This document shows positions 169 to 58,652 of a stretch of DNA of 64,000 bases, in pieces. A program made the position numbers and the translations under genes. The stretch comes from Capillidium heterosporum (taxonomy: Eukaryota > Entomophthoromycota > Entomophthoromycetes > Entomophthorales > Capillidiaceae). The first letter of the stretch is position 1. The number at the start of each line of letters is the position of its first letter. The DNA lies in assembly GCA_016630905.1 (NCBI GenBank), contig WBMQ01000018.1, positions 1 through 64,000 on the forward strand, read 5' to 3'. The notes beneath the pieces are model-generated. The model was not told where the DNA came from. It did not search any database and was given only the letters and a program-made list of their open reading frames with translations.

Positions 169-450
169 CTAAGACATTGGATACTGCTTGTATATATTGG
201 AGATGAAGTCTACTACAAAACTCAAAACTTTGAAGAATATTTTAAGTAAGGTGTAAGGTCCAAGGGGGTGCCGTTGGATCCAACTAATGATGGTGTCATA
301 ATGGGAGCGTATGACATGAGAGGTTGGAATAGTAGAACCAATGCCGACCACTGCATTGGTAATATGAATCACCCAAAGGAGGTAAGTCCAAAGGGAAGCA
401 AAGAAAGTTTGAGCGGAATGAGCTAAGAGGGTATAGAAGTTGAACCACAT
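169..450 (-). CDS. Small membrane ORF running out of LTR1 (short form)
   Basis: This 93-codon frame starts at a true ATG inside the LTR and continues through the LTR end at 252 into flanking DNA. Residues about 8-27 are hydrophobic (start MWFNFYTLLA). They are followed by the family signature ITNAVVGIGS and by SHYDTIISWIQRHPLGPY, which ends at the LTR edge. Everything after GPY is host flank and is not conserved between copies. In an intact element the frame would continue into the internal region, as Ty1 TYA/Gag does from its LTR; that link is inference. It is probably not a working gene in this solo LTR. Confidence 0.4.
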   Translation of the reverse strand: MWFNFYTLLAHSAQTFFASLWTYLLWVIHITNAVVGIGSTIPTSHVIRSHYDTIISWIQRHPLGPYTLLKIFFKVLSFVVDFISNIYKQYPMS

Positions 451-3381: not shown

Positions 3382-3965
3382 TGTAAGGTCCAAGGGGGTG
3401 CCGTTGGATTCAACTAATGATGGTGTCATAATGAGAGCGTATGACATGAGAGATCGGAACAGTAAAACTAATGCCGACCACTACATTGGTAATATGAATC
3501 ACTCAAAAGAGGTAAGTTTGAAGAGAGGCGAAGAAAGCCAAGAAGTAGTGAGCTGAGAGGGCACAGAATTCGGACTACATAGTAATGTTATGCTGATAAC
3601 TAAGAACAAGACTTTATTCGTAGACTAGGAAACAGAATCAGGCTATCAGGAACAGCTATAGCTAAGGAATAGCGAGGTGGAACACTATCAAGATATAGAC
3701 TTTTGATAGCGATCAAAGGATTTAAATATCCCTGATATTCTGAAATAGCTAATTTAAATGTAGGTTTATCCATCCTCATAGTTAAGCGAAGAAGCAGAAT
3801 TAAAAATTACAATAAAATCTAGAGGCAGAACAGGTTCGTAGCCAAAATAGCTATGAATTAAGTTATCGACAGAGAAAGTTGATAGAGCAAGTGGTATGGG
3901 AGAACAAATAAGCGGAGCAGAGCTATGGTCTAGTAGTAAGAATTGTAAAAATAAAGGCTGTTGCA
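3382..3965 (-). mobile_element. LTR1-family solo LTR, diverged
   Basis: In LTR sense it ends GGACCTTACA at 3382. At the 5' end (about 3965) the usual TGTAACAAC is eroded to TGCAACAGCC. The poly(A)-like AATAAAG lies near 3610. The embedded frame is shorter and disrupted. No target duplication could be read. Confidence 0.65.
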
Positions 3966-12158: not shown

Positions 12159-12365
12159 TTACGAACTGTAGGGAAGTCTACTAAGGGATGCCGGGTTAGG
12201 CTTGAGGTAAGCCAATATAGTGGTGATCACACCAATAAAACTAAAGAAACTCAAAGCCATGGCTTTGACAGCTGATACTTTCGTTGCGATCTGAACCCAA
12301 AGTCGGTTCATAAAAACAAAGGAGGCCACGGTTGTGACAAGGCCGAGGAGGGCGGTAATGTCCAT
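12159..12365 (-). CDS. Two-helix membrane ORF reading out of LTR3
   Basis: The frame starts at ATG 12365 (MDITALLGLVTTVASF) and has two hydrophobic segments, residues about 3-20 and 36-54 (MALSFFSFIGVITTILAY), with a basic linker (RLWVQIATKVSAVKA). It reads LSRLPY at the LTR edge and stops in the target duplication. It aligns with the LTR2 ORF at 57573-57731 (MD-T--L-LV-TV, RLW, F-S--GV--TI-A). In the other LTR3 copy (23204 onward) the Trp codon is TGA. A role as the N-terminus of an element-encoded protein is inference. Confidence 0.5.
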   Translation of the reverse strand: MDITALLGLVTTVASFVFMNRLWVQIATKVSAVKAMALSFFSFIGVITTILAYLKPNPASLSRLPYSS

Positions 12366-12947
12366 CAGAGTTCTTCTAATTCTCAAAGTTATCTAATCGA
12401 TTCTAATCTAATACTAATTCTGCTGATCCTAAGCTAATCGTAATTTAAGGCTAATCTTAAATCTAACTCGAAACTAAACTAATTCTAACTAATATAAGCT
12501 GGCAATATTCTTATTCTAATCCTGGCTAATTCAACGGTTACAGGAAGTAGGCGCTAAAGGTGTTCAGTGATTATAACACAAAGGAATCGAAATATTTATT
12601 ATGGAATAATCACTTGTCCAAAAGTTACATAAGTGAGGGAGGTTTATATAGGGTAAGAAGTAGTGATATGTGGCAAAATGAAGCTACTAATTAGCGGATT
12701 CATTAAGAAAAACAACTTGTATTTATCCTGCCTTGACATTCGATCTTATCGTCCATTTGTGAAGCGTTTCCACTCTCTAATGGCATTAAAACTCGCTATA
12801 GGTCGATAGGTTGAGTTTAGGTGGTAATGCAGAGTTTTTGTGGCTATACTACAGATCTGCTAATCAAATTGGTTTGAAGATAGGATTCGGCCAGTTAGGA
12901 GGAGGATCAAGCTGATTCTCTGCGAAGCCTTTTATGGTTTCGTTACA
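12167..12947 (-). mobile_element. LTR3-family solo LTR with 5-bp target duplication
   Basis: A 781-bp LTR starts (minus sense) TGTAACGAAACC at 12947 and ends TTCCCTACA at 12167. The duplication CGAAC is found at 12162-12166 and 12948-12952. A TATATAAACC box lies near 12648 and AATAAATATTTCG near 12595. It is inserted in LTR1. Confidence 0.9.
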
Positions 12948-13375: not shown

Positions 13376-14695
13376 TATAAGGAAACCTTTCTAAACCAGC
13401 TGTAGCTTCGCTTAATAACCATAATTAAGACTATATCTCAAACCTAGACTATTGTTTCGACATCTAATCTATCGATGCTAGAAATTCCCTTTTCCATTAG
13501 CAAGAATTAAGTACTTAACTTTGCATTGCCTGTCCCAGGTCAACCTCTCCATTACTTAAAGTCATTGACACTTGTCCGGAAAAACAATATGGACATTGGT
13601 ACTGGAGGTTGGGTAGAACTCTAACCACTGTTATCCAGAGTACCTACTACTGAATACAAGTAGTCTATATAAGGTATATGGTGAACTTAGTAGTAAGTCA
13701 AGTAATTAGTAAATAAACGTCTTGGATCAGTTGATATTTCCTTCTGTTATCGGCATAGTATAGACTCCCTATATAATATAATTTATGTTGGCTGGTCGCC
13801 CTCGCCGAGTGTCTGGCCACTGGCTCGAACTTCCAGTTGAGTGGGTTCTGCCGAACTTGACAAGTCCTTCGGCATGGGACGTGATGTATGTATCGTATTG
13901 TGGGCTGGCTAATTTAGATGCAATCAAATCTTCTACAGCCAATAAAATATATAAAATTATTAATCCCTGCAGAACCACTGGCTAAGAATCTTTAAACGTT
14001 TATTTAGACTAATTCAACAGAATCCTGACTCTCCTTCTATGCCAAGGCTTCGATATATATATTGTAACTTGGGAGACAGTCATAATTTGGTGACCTGTAA
14101 GTGGATTCTTTTCCAACAAGGAGTAGATATGTGTTTTAATCGCAGTAGTCCACCATCAAAGTTAGGATCCAATGATTCATACTTAAAGGATAGTTAATCC
14201 TAAATGGGATTAAATGGACTGGGGGTTGATTGATGTGATATGAACGGAGTATATAGTGGTTTAAAGTGAATAGTTGGTGAAAGACAATACTTAACCCGAA
14301 GTATTTTATCAAGGTGTAGTACAATTATAAGTTACTTATGAAAAATGACCTAATGTTCAATATAAAACTTAACTGAAGAGCTAAATTGGCAATTTATAAT
14401 TAAAATTTTATATCCCTCCAAGACTGAGAGTTGCACAGACCTGAATCGAACCATAGAACTGAATTGAACCGAATCCTAGAACAATTAAAACCAATGAATT
14501 TGACTACATTCCTTAGTCTCATGACTACTATCAGAATATTCCTATCCACTCAACACCTCTGTATCAGGCTCCAGGCATGAGCTTCTTCCCTATCTAGCCT
14601 TCTTATCAACTTCTTTAGCCTTTATGAAGTACTAGTTACTGTTGCATCCTGACCAATCCCTCCTGGTAAGCGTTCTTGGTAGACGTTTCTCAACG
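13376..14695 (+). mobile_element. LTR2-family solo LTR with 5-bp target duplication
   Basis: It starts TATAAGGAAACC (for TGTAAGGAAA) at 13376 and ends GACGTTTCTCAACG (for TTTCCCAACA) at 14695. It is flanked by CTACC at 13371-13375 and 14696-14700. TCTATATAAGG near 13655 and AATAAACGTC near 13711 are promoter and poly(A) candidates. An LTR4 is inserted at 13786-14391; without it the LTR is about 709 bp. A decayed copy of the LTR2 ORF starts near 14494 (ATGAATTTGACTACATTCC) and is interrupted by stop codons. Confidence 0.85.
13786..14391 (-). mobile_element. LTR4-family solo LTR with 5-bp target duplication
   Basis: A 606-bp LTR has minus-sense start TGCCAATTTAGC at 14391 and end GACCAGCCAACA at 13786. 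The duplication ATTTA is at 13781-13785 and 14392-14396. It is inserted in LTR2, itself inside LTR1. Its 3' reading frame (SPQYDTYITSH, SQWPDTRRGRPAN) stays open to the LTR end but has no ATG in this copy. Confidence 0.9.
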
Positions 14696-22616: not shown

Positions 22617-23402
22617 TGTAACGAAACCTCAGATGGCTTCCCTAGAGAATCAGCTTGATAACCCTTCTAGCTGTGTGAACTCTAGTTCTAATACTGTTTC
22701 AACCTTGCAATGGATTAGGTCTCAGTTGGTTAATAATTAATCGTAAAAAGGCGGAGTCTCCGCTTGAACTGAATAATAATTAGTGTAGTAACCCATGATA
22801 TGTCACGAATGGATTTTCCTGGTCCGCTTTCAAAGCGTGATGGATGTAAATCATCTGCCTAATGAAGTACTGGTCATCGGTATCTCCACCGTCTCGTCGT
22901 TTCCATCTCCTGCCCCTATATAAACCCCCTGACTTGTGTAACTTTTGGGAAGTGATTATTTCATAATAAATAATTCGATTTCTCCTTGTTATAATCACTG
23001 CATGTCGTTAGAACCGATTTCTTGTAACCGTTGAATCAGCCAGGAGTCGAACCAGAACATTACCAACTTAGAGTAGCTTAAAAGTTGATATACAGATTAG
23101 CGTTGGATCAAGATTAGCTTAGGATCACCAAAATTAGCATTGGATCGGAATCGCTCAGGATTAGGATTAGAGTCGATTAGACGGGATTAAGTACTAGAAC
23201 TTGATGGATATTACCGCTCTCCTTGGACTCGTCACGACTGTAGCCTCATTTGTCTTTATGAATCGACTTTGAATTCAGATTACAACGAAAGTATCAGCTG
23301 TCAAAGCCATGGCTTTGAGTTTCATTAGTTTTATTGGTGTAATCATCACTGTGTTGGCTTACCTCAAGCCTAGCTCGGCATCCCTTAGTAGATTTCCCTA
23401 CA
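22617..23402 (+). mobile_element. LTR3-family solo LTR
   Basis: A 786-bp LTR begins TGTAACGAAACC and ends TTTCCCTACA. A poly(A)-like AATAAATAATTCG lies near 22965. The ORF starts at ATG 23204 but has TGA at codon 23 in place of the RLW Trp codon. The flanks ATACC and GGATT do not match, so the element probably recombined; its left end abuts the MULE TIR exactly. Confidence 0.8.
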
Positions 23403-23903
23403 GGATTAATCAAACCTAAACTTAATTCTACAATCCAAGAAGCCAAAGAAAAGCCTCAAAACAGCTCTGGTAAACGGCCTTTTTGTCTTTCTATGCAAAA
23501 ACTTCAATATATGTATCGTAGCTCAGAAGAAACTTATAACTTAGCAGCATGTAGGTGGGTTCTTTTCAACAAAAAGGAGGACTTATGTCCTGGTTGTGGT
23601 GGTCTATCACAGCGGTTAGGACTTACTTAATCTGCAAAGCAACAATCGAAGAGTCCAAAGGTAAATCTGGGCAAAGACTACATCTATAGCGGGAAATCAA
23701 TCTCAGATAAATTAAGCAAACTGGTGGTTGTGTAGAATAATGAGAAATGGGTGGGCAGTAATTTAAAGCGCAGGAAAAATATAAAAATATGTAACTCAAA
23801 GCACATCATCGGATAGTAGTATAAATGTATATTATGAAAAATAAAAATAGCACAGTATTCAATATATGACTTAGCTCAAAGCTAGGTTGGCAGATTGAAT
23901 AAA
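23403..23903 (-). mobile_element. LTR4-family fragment
   Basis: It matches the 5' and middle parts of LTR4 in reverse: GATTAATCAAACCTAAACTT near 23404, CTATCACAGCGGTTAGGAC near 23613, and a terminal hairpin CTTAGCTCAAAGCTAGG near 23880. The 3' part with the reading frame has been replaced by LTR3. Confidence 0.65.
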
Positions 23904-27618: not shown

Positions 27619-28366
27619 GATAAGTTCGAATGGGCTTTATAAAGACTCTAGGACCTATCGATTAAATCTATCCCTTTACTTGAAGATCTGGATTTGGATA
27701 TGAAATAGGGGTGGATAAAAGCTACATCCTAAATATTGGTTTAAAGCCTATTTGGTCTAGTACGAAGCCTTAGCTTTGAGTAGCTTAATTCTAGCTAAAA
27801 GTAATGGGTTGAGCTGTAGTATTAGCGGAAGCGAAGCTGCATGCATTCAAAGCCTTGGCCTGAGACGCTTTGAACGAAGGAAAGAATAGTAAGTGTACGT
27901 AACCACCTAAAGATATGAAAGGCAGTATAAAAAGGGCATTGGTAGCTTGAATCCTCAACAAAAACGTCACAACAAACAGTCCAGATACATTTCCAATTTA
28001 TTTCTTAGCTCCCACCATCGTCAGTATGGTAGTCGGCGCCAAGTGCCTGACCCCAAGCAGTCCCTGCAACAGCGTCCGCGCGCTCGATTACTAAAGCACT
28101 GGCCTTGCTGTATTCTTTCACTCTGAAAATGAACTCCTTGACGAAGCCAAGGCGGCTAATGTGAAGAGAACCTACATATGCATCGATGCCATCCCCGACT
28201 TCAAAGCCAAATCTATCTTGAGTAATGACATCAACTTCATCATCTTATGCAAGGCTAAGGGTTGCACCAGTTCAGTCATCAACAAGCCCCCCGAGTATTA
28301 GAGAATTTGGAGGCTACAGAATGCTGTCCTGGTAGTATCTTTGTCTAGCTCTGCTTCAATGCAAAC
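27619..28366 (+). pseudogene. Secreted Cys-rich protein family, copy P3 (decayed)
   Basis: Conserved upstream sequence contains TATAAAAAGGGC near 27932. The coding remnant runs from about 27955: IYFLAPTIVSMVVGAKCLT, SSPCNSVRALDY, stop TAA, ENELLDEAKAANVKRTYICI, DAIPDFKAKSILSNDINFII and LCKAKGCTSSVINK. An extra C then frameshifts it before the FG--ECYPGS-type end. The 3' end (NTNCNTLF equivalent) continues after the LTR1 insertion at 29408. It is the best preserved central region of the family. P4 in the other IR2 arm is essentially the same sequence. Confidence 0.7.
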
Positions 28367-28832
28367 TGTAAGGTCCAGGGAGGTATCGCTGGATCCAGTC
28401 AATGATGGCATCATATTGGGAACTCATGACGTGGTAGGTCAGGAAAACGGAACTAAGGCCCACTACTGCATTGGTGACAAAGGCTTGAATTCTTCGGAGA
28501 GCAGGCCGGACAGCTAGGTGAAGGAGATATAACATAAGGAGCGCCCATACAATGGTAGTCAAGTCCCAGTTCCAGGAGGGAACTAAAGAGACGGGTTGGG
28601 ACTGGGAAGTGGAGTGGTGCTGAACTAAAGGGGACCGGCTAGGTAGTGGTTGAGCAACAGCCGGTGCCACAGTGTTAGGGTCAAAAGTAGGGGTTGGTTG
28701 ATAGGTCAACGTTGGTTCAAAGGGGTAGACGGTGTTAGTAACATTAATTGCCCAAAGAAAATGAGATCCGAGGGTAGCGAGGATCGTCAAAAGGTAATAG
28801 GAGGCTGGAAGGACAGGGAGACTAGACCACAT
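28356..28832 (-). CDS. LTR1 long-form membrane ORF
   Basis: The frame starts at ATG 28832 (MWSSLPVLPASYYLLTILAT), 158 codons. Hydrophobic segment 1 is at residues about 8-30. A Pro/Gln/Ser-rich linker follows (about 35-85, with Asn-x-Thr sites at INVTNT). Segment 2 follows WNWDL (TTIVWALLMLYLLHLAV). Then come AFVTNAVVG and YDAIIDWIQRYLPGPY, which ends exactly at the LTR boundary. The copy at 42205-42675 is nearly identical. It could be a short membrane protein or the N-terminal module of an element polyprotein. No known domain is recognised. It is the most intact member of the LTR-encoded ORF set. Confidence 0.5.
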   Translation of the reverse strand: MWSSLPVLPASYYLLTILATLGSHFLWAINVTNTVYPFEPTLTYQPTPTFDPNTVAPAVAQPLPSRSPLVQHHSTSQSQPVSLVPSWNWDLTTIVWALLMLYLLHLAVRPALRRIQAFVTNAVVGLSSVFLTYHVMSSQYDAIIDWIQRYLPGPYSLH

Positions 28833-29407
28833 AGTATTACTATGCTGAAAGTAAAAGTACGGGTAAAGGATAAGTTTATTTAGGGACAAAGGACGAGATC
28901 AGGCTGCTGGGAACAGCTATGGCTAGGGACAGGGGGTGAGTAACAGCTATTTAGAAAATAGCGAGGTGGAACGTTGTCAAGATGCTGGCTTTTGGTAGTC
29001 GTCGAGGGGTTTAAATATCCCTTTGGCATCTTGGTTGTAGTGATGCTAGCGGGATTGGTTTCCCCTTTGGCAATCCACTACTCTATAGATTAAGTGAGTG
29101 TTTACCAAGTTTATCCAAAAGAGCCAGTAATTCTATTAACTACTACTGGTGCGTTTCCATGGTTGGAAGGTGTGGATCAGCTAATGTGCTGCTAATCGCT
29201 AGAGTTCCCAGGTTATGGTCAAGTTTAAGAAAATAATAAAGGTAATCGAAATAATTGATATGTGGGGTGGATTCATAACTAAGATAGTTATGAATTGGAG
29301 AACAAAAAAAGAATTTGAAAATTAGTAAGTAGAAAGAGGAAGGGAATCTAAGAAAGGAATAGGTCTATGACCTAATAATCGGGGTTGTGACAACCAGGGT
29401 TGTTACA
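28367..29407 (-). mobile_element. LTR1 long-form solo LTR with CAAAC target duplication
   Basis: A 1041-bp LTR inserted in P3. CAAAC occurs at 28362-28366 and 29408-29412, and only once in the unoccupied twin arm near 50355. A TTTAAATA promoter-like box lies near 29010 and AATAAAC near 28876. It carries the long-form ORF. Confidence 0.95.
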
Positions 29408-29675
29408 CAAACTGCAAGACTTTGTTACCATGACACATCCAGACCACTAGAATTAGGAAATAAATTGCTGATAAATATACAGCTACTTATCAATTTATTT
29501 ATAGTGTGCATTTTTTACATATAAGACCAAATACTCAACTAGCAGCATATTTAATATTCAATAAAAGAATGTACTACAAGTTTAATGCTACCTAATTCAA
29601 TTTAATAATTTTTTATTCTATACTTAAATGGGTTTTAAATCATCAATGGATACTTGTAAAATTTTGTAAATTAAA
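29408..29675 (+). repeat. P3 3' end and foldback-type X arm
   Basis: P3 sequence resumes after the LTR (CTGCAAGACTTTGTTACCAT), followed by X-arm-like DNA from about 29455 (TTAGGAAATAAATTGCTGATA). This is the same gene-then-X-arm order as in P1, P2 and P4. Confidence 0.6.
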
Positions 29676-42204: not shown

Positions 42205-42675
42205 TTATTTGTAAGGTGCAGGGAGGTATCGCTGGATCCAGTCAATGATGGCATCATATTGGGAACTCATGACGTGGTAGGTCAGGAAAACGGAACTAAG
42301 GCCCACTACTGCATTGGTGACAAAGGCTTGAATTCTCCGGAGAGCAGGCCGGACAGCCAGGTGAAGGAGGTACAACATAAGGAGTGCCCATACAATGGTA
42401 GTCAAGTCCCAGTTCCAGGAGGGAACTAAAGAGACGGGTTGGGACTGGGAAGTGGAGTGGTGCTGAACTAGAGGGGGCCGGCTAGGTAGTGGTTGAGCAA
42501 CCACTGGTGCCACAGTGTTAGGGTCAAAAGTAGGGGTTGGTTGATAGGTCAACGTTGGTTCAAAGGGATAGACAGTGTTAGTAACATTAATTGCCCAAAG
42601 AAGATGAGATCCGAGGGTAGCGAGGATCGTCAAAAGGTAATAGGAGGCTGGAAGGACAGGGAGACTAGACCACAT
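42205..42675 (-). CDS. LTR1 long-form membrane ORF, second copy
   Basis: A 156-codon frame starts at ATG 42675 with the same architecture as 28356-28832: hydrophobic segment, Pro-rich linker, WNWDL, second hydrophobic segment, YDAIIDWIQRYLPAPY at the LTR edge. Only a few residues differ, including P-A-P for P-G-P at the end. Its persistence open in two independent insertions suggests recent activity or constraint. Confidence 0.5.
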   Translation of the reverse strand: MWSSLPVLPASYYLLTILATLGSHLLWAINVTNTVYPFEPTLTYQPTPTFDPNTVAPVVAQPLPSRPPLVQHHSTSQSQPVSLVPSWNWDLTTIVWALLMLYLLHLAVRPALRRIQAFVTNAVVGLSSVFLTYHVMSSQYDAIIDWIQRYLPAPYK

Positions 42676-43222
42676 AGTATTACTATGCTGAAAGTAAAAG
42701 TACGGGTAAAGGATAAGTTTATTTAGGGACAAAGGACGAGATCAGGCTGCTGGGAACAGCTATGGCTAGGGACAGGGGGTGAGTAACAGCTATTAAAAAT
42801 AGCGAGGTGGAACGTTGCCAAGATGCTGGCTTTTGATAGTCACAAAGGGGTTTAAATATCCTTTTGGCACCTTGGTTGTAGTGATGTTAGCGAGATTGGA
42901 TTCCCCTTCGGCAATCCACTACTCTATAGATTAATTGAGTATTTACCAAGCTTATCCAAAAGAGCCAGTAATTCTATTAACTACTACTGGTGCGTTTCCA
43001 TGGTTGGAAGGTGTGGATCAGCTAATGTGCTGCTAATCGCTAGAGTTCCCAAGTTATGGTCAAGTTTACGAAAATAATCAAGGTAATCGAAATAATTGAT
43101 ATGTGAAGTGGATTCGTAACAAAAAAATTTGAAAATTGATAAGGTATAGCAAGAGAAAGGGAATTAGAAAAGAATATGTTTATGACCTAATAATCGGGAT
43201 TATGACGACCAGGGTTGTTACA
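42210..43222 (-). mobile_element. LTR1 long-form LTR nested in LTR1
   Basis: A 1013-bp LTR runs TGTAAGGTGC...GTTGTTACA on the plus strand. Flanks TTATT (42205-42209) and TTACT (43223-43227) are a 5-bp target duplication with one mismatch. It is nearly identical to 28367-29407 over the ORF. Confidence 0.88.
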
Positions 43223-45775: not shown

Positions 45776-46801
45776 TTATTGTTTATTGGAAATAAACCTC
45801 ACTATATTTTCCTTTGAAGAACATACAATCAATTTAAGTTGGTTAGCTATACCTGTATGTAGAGTAAGCAAATATAAAGGGTTTAGGACTGAAATTAAAA
45901 GGATGAAGACAATGGGGAGTGATGAAACAGTCCTATTCATCTTATACTCCCCATCAGTTATATAGAACATTGCTGGATCGTATATAAAGATGACAATAGT
46001 TGGTATAGCTAAAGCTAGGTACACAGCTATCAATACTAAAGCATGTGCTAAATAGCCACCAGTTGATGAAGAAAATATGCCGCTGCTGTCATCCACGCTT
46101 GATCTGACCATCCTAGTACTGGAGTTGGAAGGACTTTCGATATTGTTGTTGGTAGTTGATAAGGGAATATCCAAGCTAGCCGGTTTGACTTTCCTTCGGA
46201 TCAATGTAAGTCTCCTATGCAGTAGAAATATATTGATGTAACAATAGACCATTAAAGCGGCATGAGCTATAAGCATGCCTACCAAAACAAAGTACCATAG
46301 CATCCCAAAGATGCTGATCTCATAACTGACCATACACATAACGTTGTTTGGTGCAATATGGAAACTCATGTTTACGGCAGCTAAAGTTGCAAAGATGAAT
46401 CCGACTACAAAATCAACCGCGATGATTGTATAAAACACTCTATCATCCCATCGCATATCAAAAACTTTGATGTATCTCTCCAACGCTAATATGGCTACTA
46501 TACCAGTTGTCAAGTGGGGTGCCATGGTCTGAATGAATCCAAAGATCTGGCAGTTGGGGTAGATTTTATCGAGGATTCGTAGATTAAAGCTTCGGTAGGC
46601 GATGTTCTGAATTAGTGCCTCTAAAGGCCCTATCAAATCGTAAGCAGCTGCCAAGAATACTATAATTATACTTAGGGACATACCGTTCCTCATCTTCAAG
46701 CTCAAGATTGTAATTAAAACTATTATGTTGAGTAGTATACTGGCTACGGCAATAATGGTTGAAAAGATCTCTATGGGGATGTTGATATCACTATCAGGCA
46801 T
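45776..46801 (-). CDS. Class A (rhodopsin-like) G-protein-coupled receptor
   Basis: This 341-aa protein starts at ATG 46801 and has seven hydrophobic segments: about 11-34, 44-66, 85-107, 122-144, 163-190, 250-274 and 294-315. It carries the class A landmarks: Asn25 in TM1, Asp55 in TM2, Cys84 and Cys156 as the likely extracellular disulphide, Glu-Arg-Tyr 108-110 at the TM3 end, Pro267 in TM6 and NPLY 307-310 as the NPxxY equivalent. The third intracellular loop (about 195-248) is basic, then Ser-rich. This type is rare in Dikarya but present in some early-diverging fungi. It probably senses an external ligand at the plasma membrane; the ligand is unknown. Confidence 0.9.
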   Translation of the reverse strand: MPDSDINIPIEIFSTIIAVASILLNIIVLITILSLKMRNGMSLSIIIVFLAAAYDLIGPLEALIQNIAYRSFNLRILDKIYPNCQIFGFIQTMAPHLTTGIVAILALERYIKVFDMRWDDRVFYTIIAVDFVVGFIFATLAAVNMSFHIAPNNVMCMVSYEISIFGMLWYFVLVGMLIAHAALMVYCYINIFLLHRRLTLIRRKVKPASLDIPLSTTNNNIESPSNSSTRMVRSSVDDSSGIFSSSTGGYLAHALVLIAVYLALAIPTIVIFIYDPAMFYITDGEYKMNRTVSSLPIVFILLISVLNPLYLLTLHTGIANQLKLIVCSSKENIVRFISNKQ

Positions 46802-57529: not shown

Positions 57530-58183
57530 TGTTGGGAAACGTCCACCAAGAACGCTTACCAGCAGGAGTTAATCAAGCAGTAATGGTAGCCAGTACTCCA
57601 TAAAGGCTAAGGAAGTTGACACAAAGGTTATACAGGGAGGATAATCGTGCCTGGAGTCGGATCCAGAGGCGGTGAGCAGACAGGACTACTCCAACCGTAG
57701 CCACGAGACTAAGGAATGTGGTCAAATCCATTGTTTAGCTTAAGTTTTCAGATTCAGTTCAGTTCAGGTTGTTGATTCAGGTCAGGTCAATGCAACTCTC
57801 GGTCTTGGAGGGATGCAAATTATCAGTTCTCAATTATACTACGCAGGGAGTCTATACTATGCCGATAGCAGAAGAAAATATCAAATGTTCAATACGTTTA
57901 TTTAATAATTACTTGACCTGCTACTAAGTTCACCGTGGGCCTTATATAGGTGACTTGTATTTAGTAGTAAATGTTCCAGATACTGATGATTAGTATTTAT
58001 CTAAACTCCAGTATCAAAATTCATTTGGTTCTTCTAGGAGATAATCGTGATCTTTAGGGAGTGCAAGGATTGAGACACAGTTAATGTGGGGTTGATCACT
58101 TGATTCCTGTTACAAGGGCATTTCTAAACTTGAATTCGATTTATGGGGTGAAACTACGGCTGATCTAGGAATATTTCCTTACA
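57530..58183 (-). mobile_element. LTR2-family solo LTR
   Basis: A 654-bp LTR has plus-strand start TGTTGGGAAACGTCC and end ATTTCCTTACA. In LTR sense it carries CCTATATAAGGCCC (about 57945) and AATAAACGTATTG (about 57896). The flanks CAATC and GGGGT do not match. Both neighbours are LTR1 pieces. Confidence 0.82.
57573..57731 (-). CDS. Two-helix membrane ORF of LTR2
   Basis: A 52-aa frame from ATG 57731 (MDLTTFLSLVATVGVVLSAH) has hydrophobic segments at about 4-19 and 33-51, with a basic linker (RLWIRLQARLSS). It ends at a TGA; beyond it the same frame reads GKRSWWTFPN to the LTR edge, so one mutated codon may separate it from the read-out form. It is homologous to the LTR3 ORF at 12159-12365. 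Confidence 0.45.
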   Translation of the reverse strand: MDLTTFLSLVATVGVVLSAHRLWIRLQARLSSLYNLCVNFLSLYGVLATITA

Positions 58184-58652
58184 GGGGTATTTAAATCCCT
58201 TTCTGTCATTACCCAAAGAATTCATCTTGACAACGTTCCACCTCGCTATTTTCTAAATAGCTGTTACTCACCTCTTGATCTCAACCATCAACTATAGCTG
58301 TTGCGACAGCCTGATCTGTTTCCCTTGCCATAGCTGTCTCTGACAGCCTGATCTGTTTCCCCTGCCATAGCTGTCTCTGACAGCCTGATTCTGTTTCGTC
58401 TACGAATAAAGTATTGTTCCTGGTCAGCCTTTTAGTTATTAGATTGTGCGAATATGTGGTTCAACTTCTATACCCTCTTAGCTCACTCCGTTCAAACTTT
58501 CTTCGCTTCCCTTTGGACTTACCTCCTTTGGGTGATTCATATTACCAATGCTGTGGTCGGCATTGGTTCTACTGTCCCGACCTCTCATGTCATACGCTCC
58601 CATTATGACACCATCATTAGTTGGATTCAACGGCACCCCCTTGGACCTTACA
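58184..58652 (+). mobile_element. LTR1-family 3' part with internal tandem repeat
   Basis: It starts at GGGGTATTTAAATCCC and ends CTTGGACCTTACA. A unit of about 43 bp (CATAGCTGTCTCTGACAGCC followed by TGATCTGTTTCC) is repeated about three times at 58290-58400. AATAAAG lies near 58405. The short-form ORF starts at ATG 58454 and runs past the LTR end to 58720 in a frame different from the downstream transposase. Confidence 0.8.

Follow-up and report, generated by a model that had tools for sequence, protein, structure and literature searches.

A putative membrane leader of Gag encoded in the long terminal repeats of Ty3/gypsy-type elements of Capillidium heterosporum

Retroviral Gag proteins reach membranes by means of a lipid anchor. 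Foamy virus Gag is without membrane-targeting signals (PMC7828637). Ty1 Gag enters the endoplasmic reticulum (ER) through the signal recognition particle and is said to have no discernible signal or transmembrane domain (PMC3945221). A survey of fungal chromoviruses reports that their Gags vary greatly among families, and the word transmembrane is absent from the text of that survey (PMC2864245); a self-priming layout has been described for Tf1 and Tj1 (PMC4600332). Here we analyze the first 64,000 nucleotides of contig WBMQ01000018.1 of Capillidium heterosporum (assembly GCA_016630905.1), hereafter the window, which contains long terminal repeats (LTRs) of several families. In our opinion, LTR1, its short form LTR1c, LTR2 and LTR3 probably represent a Ty3/gypsy group in which Gag starts within the LTR and is anchored in a membrane on which the particles assemble. 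An earlier note on the window had assigned to four LTR families a reading frame that leaves the LTR; the assignment stands for LTR1, LTR2 and LTR3, but not for LTR4.

The LTR1 copy at 28367..29407 (minus strand) is a solo LTR of 1041 bp with TG...CA ends, delimited by alignment to the 1047-bp LTRs of a full-length element, L021. As read in the sequence, it is bordered by a perfect 5-bp target site duplication (TSD), CAAAC, at 28362..28366 and 29408-29412. On the same strand it carries a TATA box (TATTTAAA in minus-strand letters, 29010..29017), a putative RNA 5' end region (ATCTTGACAA, 28974..28983) that complements the primer-binding site (PBS) of full-length copies, an AATAAA signal (28875..28880) and, at 28367..28832, 155 codons up to the LTR edge that encode the N-terminus of Gag, the putative membrane leader. 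The open reading frame (ORF) at 28356-28832 (minus strand) encodes 158 amino acids; its final codons are flanking DNA, because LTR1 ends at 28367. The copies at 28356-28832 and 42205-42675 bear out the earlier statement that the frame reaches the 3' end of LTR1. When the window's own assembly (29.5 Mb, 44 contigs) was searched with this ORF, 180 candidates emerged, of which 40 were scored. Of the 42 matches listed for these, 40 were near full length, at 90-100% identity, and the other two, of 101 nt, were 77% identical. Identical 5-bp flanks border 10 of the 17 LTR1 copies with both ends located, a count in which L005/L006 and L017/L020 share flanks and may be duplicated regions; three of the remaining seven are single LTRs of full elements.

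Two of the fetched LTR1 copies are the two ends of one 6.7-kb element, L021 (contig C2). Its LTRs, of 1047 bp each, are identical and have TG...CA ends; the TSD is ATAAC, and a purine tract is present. The LTR frame passes the LTR edge without a stop and becomes Gag, 539 amino acids long from the first ATG. The pol frame (1168 codons) lies in the -1 frame relative to gag, with a 19-nt overlap, and ends in a stop codon directly against the 3' LTR; thus the element has no env and no room for one. Pfam domains of pol occur in the order protease, reverse transcriptase (RT), RNase H, integrase, SH3_Tf2-1 and chromodomain (PF00385, residues 1101-1148, E 1.4e-10; LTR1 only), and the best PDB match of this pol is Ty3 Gag-Pol (E 2.6e-144). 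Ty3_capsid scores above its 29.1-bit cut-off in the gags of LTR1, LTR2 and LTR3 (33.4, 29.8 and 33.2 bits, respectively). A zinc knuckle pattern, C-X2-C-X4-H-X4-C, was spotted by eye in LTR1 Gag; Pfam zf-CCHC is not reported for this protein and reaches 20.3 bits, against a cut-off of 20.8, in LTR3 Gag. Judged from its sequence, the LTR1 element is a Ty3/gypsy chromovirus.

The same arrangement recurs in other LTR1-type elements, and the frame at 28367..28832 corresponds to one that enters Gag in L021, L002, L089 and L092. L002 (C32) has the same leader-Gag frame, of 561 codons; L089 (C23), the 5' part of a diverged element, has a leader-gag frame of 552 codons and a pol frame of 1169 amino acids; L092 (C23) is open through all 366 codons, which start inside the leader and reach the capsid. 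Over the available sequence, the leader-gag junction is therefore open in four of the five LTR1-type 5' junctions looked at (C2, C32 and C23 twice). At the fifth, in L090 (C12), the first part of the leader has been lost, and the remainder is open into gag. Further members are represented by open frames of 541 amino acids at C35 and 431 at C6. The -1 overlap of gag and pol, with a common AAGTTTTCAATAAGCCC stretch, is found at 3563-3581 of the reverse strand of L021 and at 2291-2312 of the reverse strand of L089.

A short LTR1c element, L080 (1513-3081, C23:2183380 region; its other end is L079), measures about 2.1 kb between LTR starts and has one open frame of 523 codons, which joins the leader, a putative zinc knuckle, a protease-like part and scraps of pol, without capsid and RT. 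Its leader-gag frame is open up to the zinc knuckle. Four LTR pairs of this short type are listed; the sole independent copy compared with L080, L074 (C2), is 98.8% identical and has a 1-nt gap in the frame. As far as can be read from these copies, the type is a nonautonomous element that retains the putative membrane leader.

Comparison of L021 with L089 gives a ratio of nonsynonymous to synonymous substitution rates (dN/dS) of 0.139 for the LTR-encoded leader (dS about 0.9), which is not near 1. Within the leader, the ratio is 0.057 for the first 45 codons, 0.227 for the linker and 0.126 for the second and third segments; beyond it, 0.206 just past the LTR, 0.052 in the capsid and 0.072 in the protease region. 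Three-way comparison with L092, which rests on short stretches and includes what looks like a mosaic sequence, places the hydrophobic parts at 0.03-0.29, the linker at 0.10-0.21 and the spacer ahead of the capsid at 0.18-0.47. By these measures, the LTR1 leader is under purifying selection.

Copies from the window and the fetched loci, with matches below 80% of the query dropped, were also compared family by family, and LTR3 gave the clearest result. The LTR3 leader is stop-free and without indels in 14 of 15 distinct copies, and none of the 15 is stop-free in either other frame; its differences at the three codon positions number 478, 680 and 1483. Corresponding numbers are 3938, 3030 and 6246 for LTR1 (16 of 22 distinct copies stop-free), with a weaker bias in LTR2 (3528, 2823 and 4146; 8 of 24 stop-free) and in LTR1c (1608, 1635 and 1832; 10 of 19 stop-free). 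It should be noted that such pairwise sums count shared ancestry many times. Net frame-shifting indels within the leader occur in five copies of LTR1, four of LTR2 and two of LTR1c. Taken with the continuation of the frame, coding by LTR1 and the fusion of its LTR frame to gag are well shown.

The LTR3-encoded leader of the window comprises 66 codons (12168..12365, minus strand; LTR about 12166-12947) and, as previously described, reaches the edge of its LTR at about 12167. A second copy, with one stop, lies at 23204..23403 (plus strand). The LTR2-encoded leader (57530..57731, minus strand; LTR about 57530-57987) had likewise been described as leaving its LTR. The frame is real, and in other LTR2 copies it does exit, but in the window copy a TGA at 57573-57575 ends it about 14 codons short of the edge at 57530. 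The leader is in phase with gag in L028 (LTR2, C44), and the junction is open in L091 (LTR2-type, C12). L086 (LTR3) has an open internal region that begins in the frame of the leader; a second LTR3 locus, L048, has a stop after the junction. Profile comparison shows two homologous pairs of leaders, those of LTR2 and LTR3 (probability 96.9%) and those of LTR1 and LTR1c (97.7%). Judged by these copies, the leaders of LTR2 and LTR3 form a second type, which shares the frame of gag and is known only from damaged or partial copies. For LTR3, coding is well shown, and fusion to gag is supported by phase; for LTR2, both coding and fusion are supported, through damaged copies. Kinship between the LTR1 and the LTR2/3 leaders was also considered and rejected, the LTR1 score being matched by 261 of 500 and 493 of 500 shuffles. 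As a separate observation, the LTR piece upstream of gag is inverted in L086 (around 1880-1940) and in L048 (minus strand), as if through self-integration or rearrangement.

Hydropathy was assessed on the Kyte-Doolittle (KD) scale in 19-residue windows. The peaks are 1.51, 1.86 and 1.39 within LTR1 and 2.18 after its edge; 1.46 and 2.11 for LTR1c; 2.37 and 1.58 in LTR3, then 2.04; and 1.59 and 1.69 in LTR2, then 1.81. Thus, the gags of LTR1, LTR2 and LTR3 each have one further hydrophobic stretch past the LTR edge. Residues 1-200 of LTR1 Gag contain two segments at KD 1.6, and the rest of the protein contains none (maximum 0.46). At this level, a G-protein-coupled receptor (GPCR)-like protein of the window, encoded at 45776-46801 (minus strand) and bearing a LERY motif, shows six segments, four other window proteins none and LTR1 pol one (1.77). 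At 1.3, the GPCR-like protein shows seven, the four other proteins 1, 2, 0 and 0, and pol two. In both LTR2 and LTR3, the loop between the two LTR segments has three basic residues and is free of acidic ones; the matching loop of LTR1 has two basic residues and likewise no acidic ones. Under the positive-inside rule, such loops bear on topology. Membrane anchoring of the leader is the best reading of these predictions.

In LTR1, LTR1b, LTR1c, LTR2 and LTR3, a sequence of 10-11 nt located 34-35 nt after the TATA box complements the first bases after the 5' LTR, a length of complement matched by 2-5 of 1000 shuffles. This test was made within one element for LTR1, LTR1b and LTR1c, and between separate copies for LTR2 (the PBS of L028 with each of four solo LTRs) and LTR3 (LTR and internal region from different copies). 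The self-primer sequences of the LTR1 type and the LTR2/3 type differ, and each fits its own PBS. Reverse transcription is thus probably self-primed by the RNA 5' end in a Tf1-like manner, with a putative RNA start. In all five (sub)families tested, the leader ATG is the first after the TATA-placed start: no ATG intervenes over 150-272 nt in one copy of each. Markov controls with the same dinucleotide steps contain 1.1-5.4 ATGs on average; singly, ATG-free controls make up 29% for LTR1, 32% for LTR1b, 1.5% for LTR1c, 0.3% for LTR2 and 5% for LTR3, and none of 5000 was ATG-free for all five at once, although the five are not independent, since they are partly related. In the copies of these (sub)families tested, the leader also starts downstream of AATAAA, as had been proposed.

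The mechanism we propose is as follows. Gag would start inside the 5' LTR, downstream of both the RNA start and the polyadenylation signal. The LTR would encode a domain at the N-terminus of Gag in which the number of hydrophobic stretches varies from one (LTR1c) to three (LTR1). Another would follow a few tens of codons past the edge, and in full elements the capsid and zinc knuckle would come after these. The nascent leader may enter the insertion machinery of the ER, so that Gag would be made membrane-anchored, its capsid part most likely on the cytosolic side. Particles would then assemble on the membrane, the leader filling the role that the myristoylated matrix has in retroviruses. A broader version of this proposal is possible, although we lean slightly against it: a fungal Ty3/gypsy lineage may have acquired a multi-pass membrane Gag by extension into the LTR, its particles assembling on, or budding into, an internal membrane and possibly leaving in vesicles without env. 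In such a lineage, the leader sequence would turn over fast and the layout would be kept, including the position of the LTR edge and PBS in the loop between two membrane segments.

Several observations weigh against the mechanism proposed here for these families. Two of the three LTR1 leader segments are marginal (1.51 and 1.39), and since segments at the 1.3 level also occur in control proteins and pol, the scale does not distinguish these weaker segments. A second hydrophobicity scale, applied with a home-made weighting, covered 16 segments in LTR1, 1b, 1c, 2 and 3 and gave positive, i.e., unfavourable, values to 15 of them. Single-sequence AlphaFold models are long unbroken helices, not hairpins (predicted local distance difference test scores 69.6 and 83.4). 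The next loop of LTR3, which would be lumenal, has four basic residues and one acidic; therefore, the positive-inside rule only leans to a cytosolic capsid. Neither charges nor AlphaFold settled the topology. The LTR1 and LTR2/3 leaders are without detectable homology (between-group profile probabilities of at most 1.6%). Both LTR2 5' junctions looked at are damaged: L028 has a single stop, 25 codons beyond the edge of its LTR, and L091 a frame break inside its leader. In both LTR3 copies seen (L086 and L048), the 5' LTR beside gag is rearranged. The LTR of L028 itself, from which the relevant part is absent, gave a PBS complement of 6 nt (843 of 1000 shuffles), and that of the decayed L091 likewise 6 nt. 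Finally, for LTR1 and LTR1b, the absence of upstream ATGs is by itself unremarkable in view of the controls.

Some of these points would suit a real, LTR-encoded Gag N-terminus whose helices serve Gag-Gag packing or form an amphipathic domain that touches the membrane rather than spans it; the marginal segments of LTR1, their counterparts in control proteins and the continuous modelled helices all agree with this. Nevertheless, we consider it unlikely, because the hydrophobic layout is common to two leader types without detectable sequence homology, because leader segments reach KD 2.37, and because of the pol relatives with long upstream sequence. Of 7978 candidates scored in a search with pol, 6288 reached E 0.001 or better; the 120 listed are 34-50% identical, and none of the 24 among them with the RT motif beyond residue 600, some of which do not begin with gag, reaches 1.6 in its first 300 residues. 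A 1.6 window within the first 300 residues, in whatever part of the protein that is, occurs in 8 of the 120. The stop that splits leader from gag in L028 is what would be expected if the LTRs encoded independent membrane micro-proteins and gag started separately, as the earlier note had suggested as an alternative to polyprotein N-termini with a membrane leader. This we regard as very improbable: the junction is open in four elements of the LTR1 type, in the short element L080 and in the second LTR2 copy, and the idea finds no support in LTR1, where it is refuted by a frame that continues into Gag and does not stop inside the internal region. The polyprotein alternative is supported for LTR1, for which neither of the outcomes named as refuting in the earlier note was observed. 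LTR2 and LTR3 lend support only through copies that are damaged or partial, and the membrane part of this alternative is a prediction. It is extremely unlikely that the open frames of the LTRs are products of chance in noncoding DNA. Stops do occur in decayed distinct copies (16 of 24 for LTR2, 9 of 19 for LTR1c and 6 of 22 for LTR1), and for the LTR4 frame this is the correct reading; for LTR1 and LTR3 it is refuted by the codon-position pattern, and for LTR1 also by dN/dS and the continuation into Gag.

LTR4 is an internal negative control. The hydrophobic frame assigned to it earlier (13786..13978, minus strand) is without any ATG in the window and is rejected as coding; among 23 distinct copies, four are stop-free and 13 have a net frame-shifting indel, with no codon-position bias. 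In an element on C18, which has RT in an open frame of 1651 amino acids and LTRs identical over 590 bp, this frame, as found in the 5' LTR, breaks after six codons. The C18 Gag is hydrophilic and is encoded in a different frame; one ATG of that frame lies right at the edge of the LTR and another inside it. The corresponding stretch of the window (13786..13875, minus strand), in phase with that Gag and without a membrane segment, shows no codon-position bias (2134, 2022 and 2146). C18 Gag may start in this stretch or at the edge ATG, and the lack of bias suggests that it could simply be the latter. The LTR4 PBS region (A|TGGAGCC) has no complement of at least 6 nt in its LTR. For lack of an ATG, of conservation and of a self-primer, and with a hydrophilic Gag, LTR4 was rejected as a member of the group.

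Leader copies of LTR1, LTR1c, LTR2 and LTR3 are more numerous in the window than was noted previously. A second LTR1 copy of the solo type (42210..43222, minus strand; flanks TTATT / TTACT) has its leader up to 42675. The segment at 169-450, earlier assigned to LTR1 as a whole, is LTR-encoded at 252..450 (LTR1c leader, minus strand, LTR edge at 252), and 169-251 is flanking DNA. An open copy of the LTR1c leader, 97% identical in amino acids, lies at 58454..58651 (plus strand). A stretch of 312 bp, 169-480, is identical between contigs C10 and C13, and both have the LTR1c end at the same coordinates, which suggests duplicated repeat-rich contig ends. The window also contains inverted duplications that are 100% complementary: 8544-10383/30835-32674 (1840 nt), 26696-28372/50348-52024 (1677 nt) and 39900-41327/54486-55913 (1428 nt). 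The last pair carries a duplicated ORF of 316 amino acids, which we take to resemble a Gti1/Pac2 regulator. The host may belong to a fungal lineage that diverged early.

Public proteins contained no homologue at E 0.001 of LTR1 Gag (7997 candidates scored) or LTR3 Gag (1571 candidates scored) in searches that detect only relatives with shared short words. Comparison of Gag with solved structures gave one match, Ty3, at E 0.25 over a 21-residue stretch near the C-terminus. In the accessible parts of the open-licence literature, our search found no LTR retrotransposon Gag with several N-terminal membrane segments. If the proposal is correct, a Ty3-type Gag with its own membrane-spanning start would be a third route to the membrane, beside the lipid anchor and the ER passage of Ty1, and the rise of membrane assembly in elements without env would become testable. 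Moreover, solo LTRs can scatter many start frames of putative membrane proteins across a genome.

Among known systems, Ty1 of Saccharomyces, an element of the copia type, likewise has its Gag start within the LTR, and differs in the order of pol. The self-priming chromoviruses of the Tf1/sushi type (Tf1 and Tj1) share with LTR1 a Ty3/gypsy pol with a chromodomain and a Tf2-1-like SH3 domain, and a PBS that complements the putative RNA 5' end. Unlike them, LTR1 starts its Gag in the LTR with a hydrophobic leader and has gag and pol in separate overlapping frames; Tf1 has a single frame. The mouse intracisternal A particle, which is derived from betaretroviruses and primed by tRNA, has an ER-directed Gag with a hydrophobic N-terminus. 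In contrast to it, the fungal leader has several segments and is located in the LTR; the two are alike in being without env and without a myristoylation signal (PMC9412291). Some plant Athila elements, of gypsy type as well, also encode a membrane segment, but this is a single transmembrane helix in an env-like ORF of its own, which lies 3' and does not form the start of Gag (PMC11728184). The human retroviral-like protease gene ASPRV1 resembles the LTR1 element in having a hydrophobic stretch at the N-terminus together with a capsid-like and a protease part; it is a host gene, and a review terms its one short stretch hydrophobic rather than transmembrane (PMC11402058).
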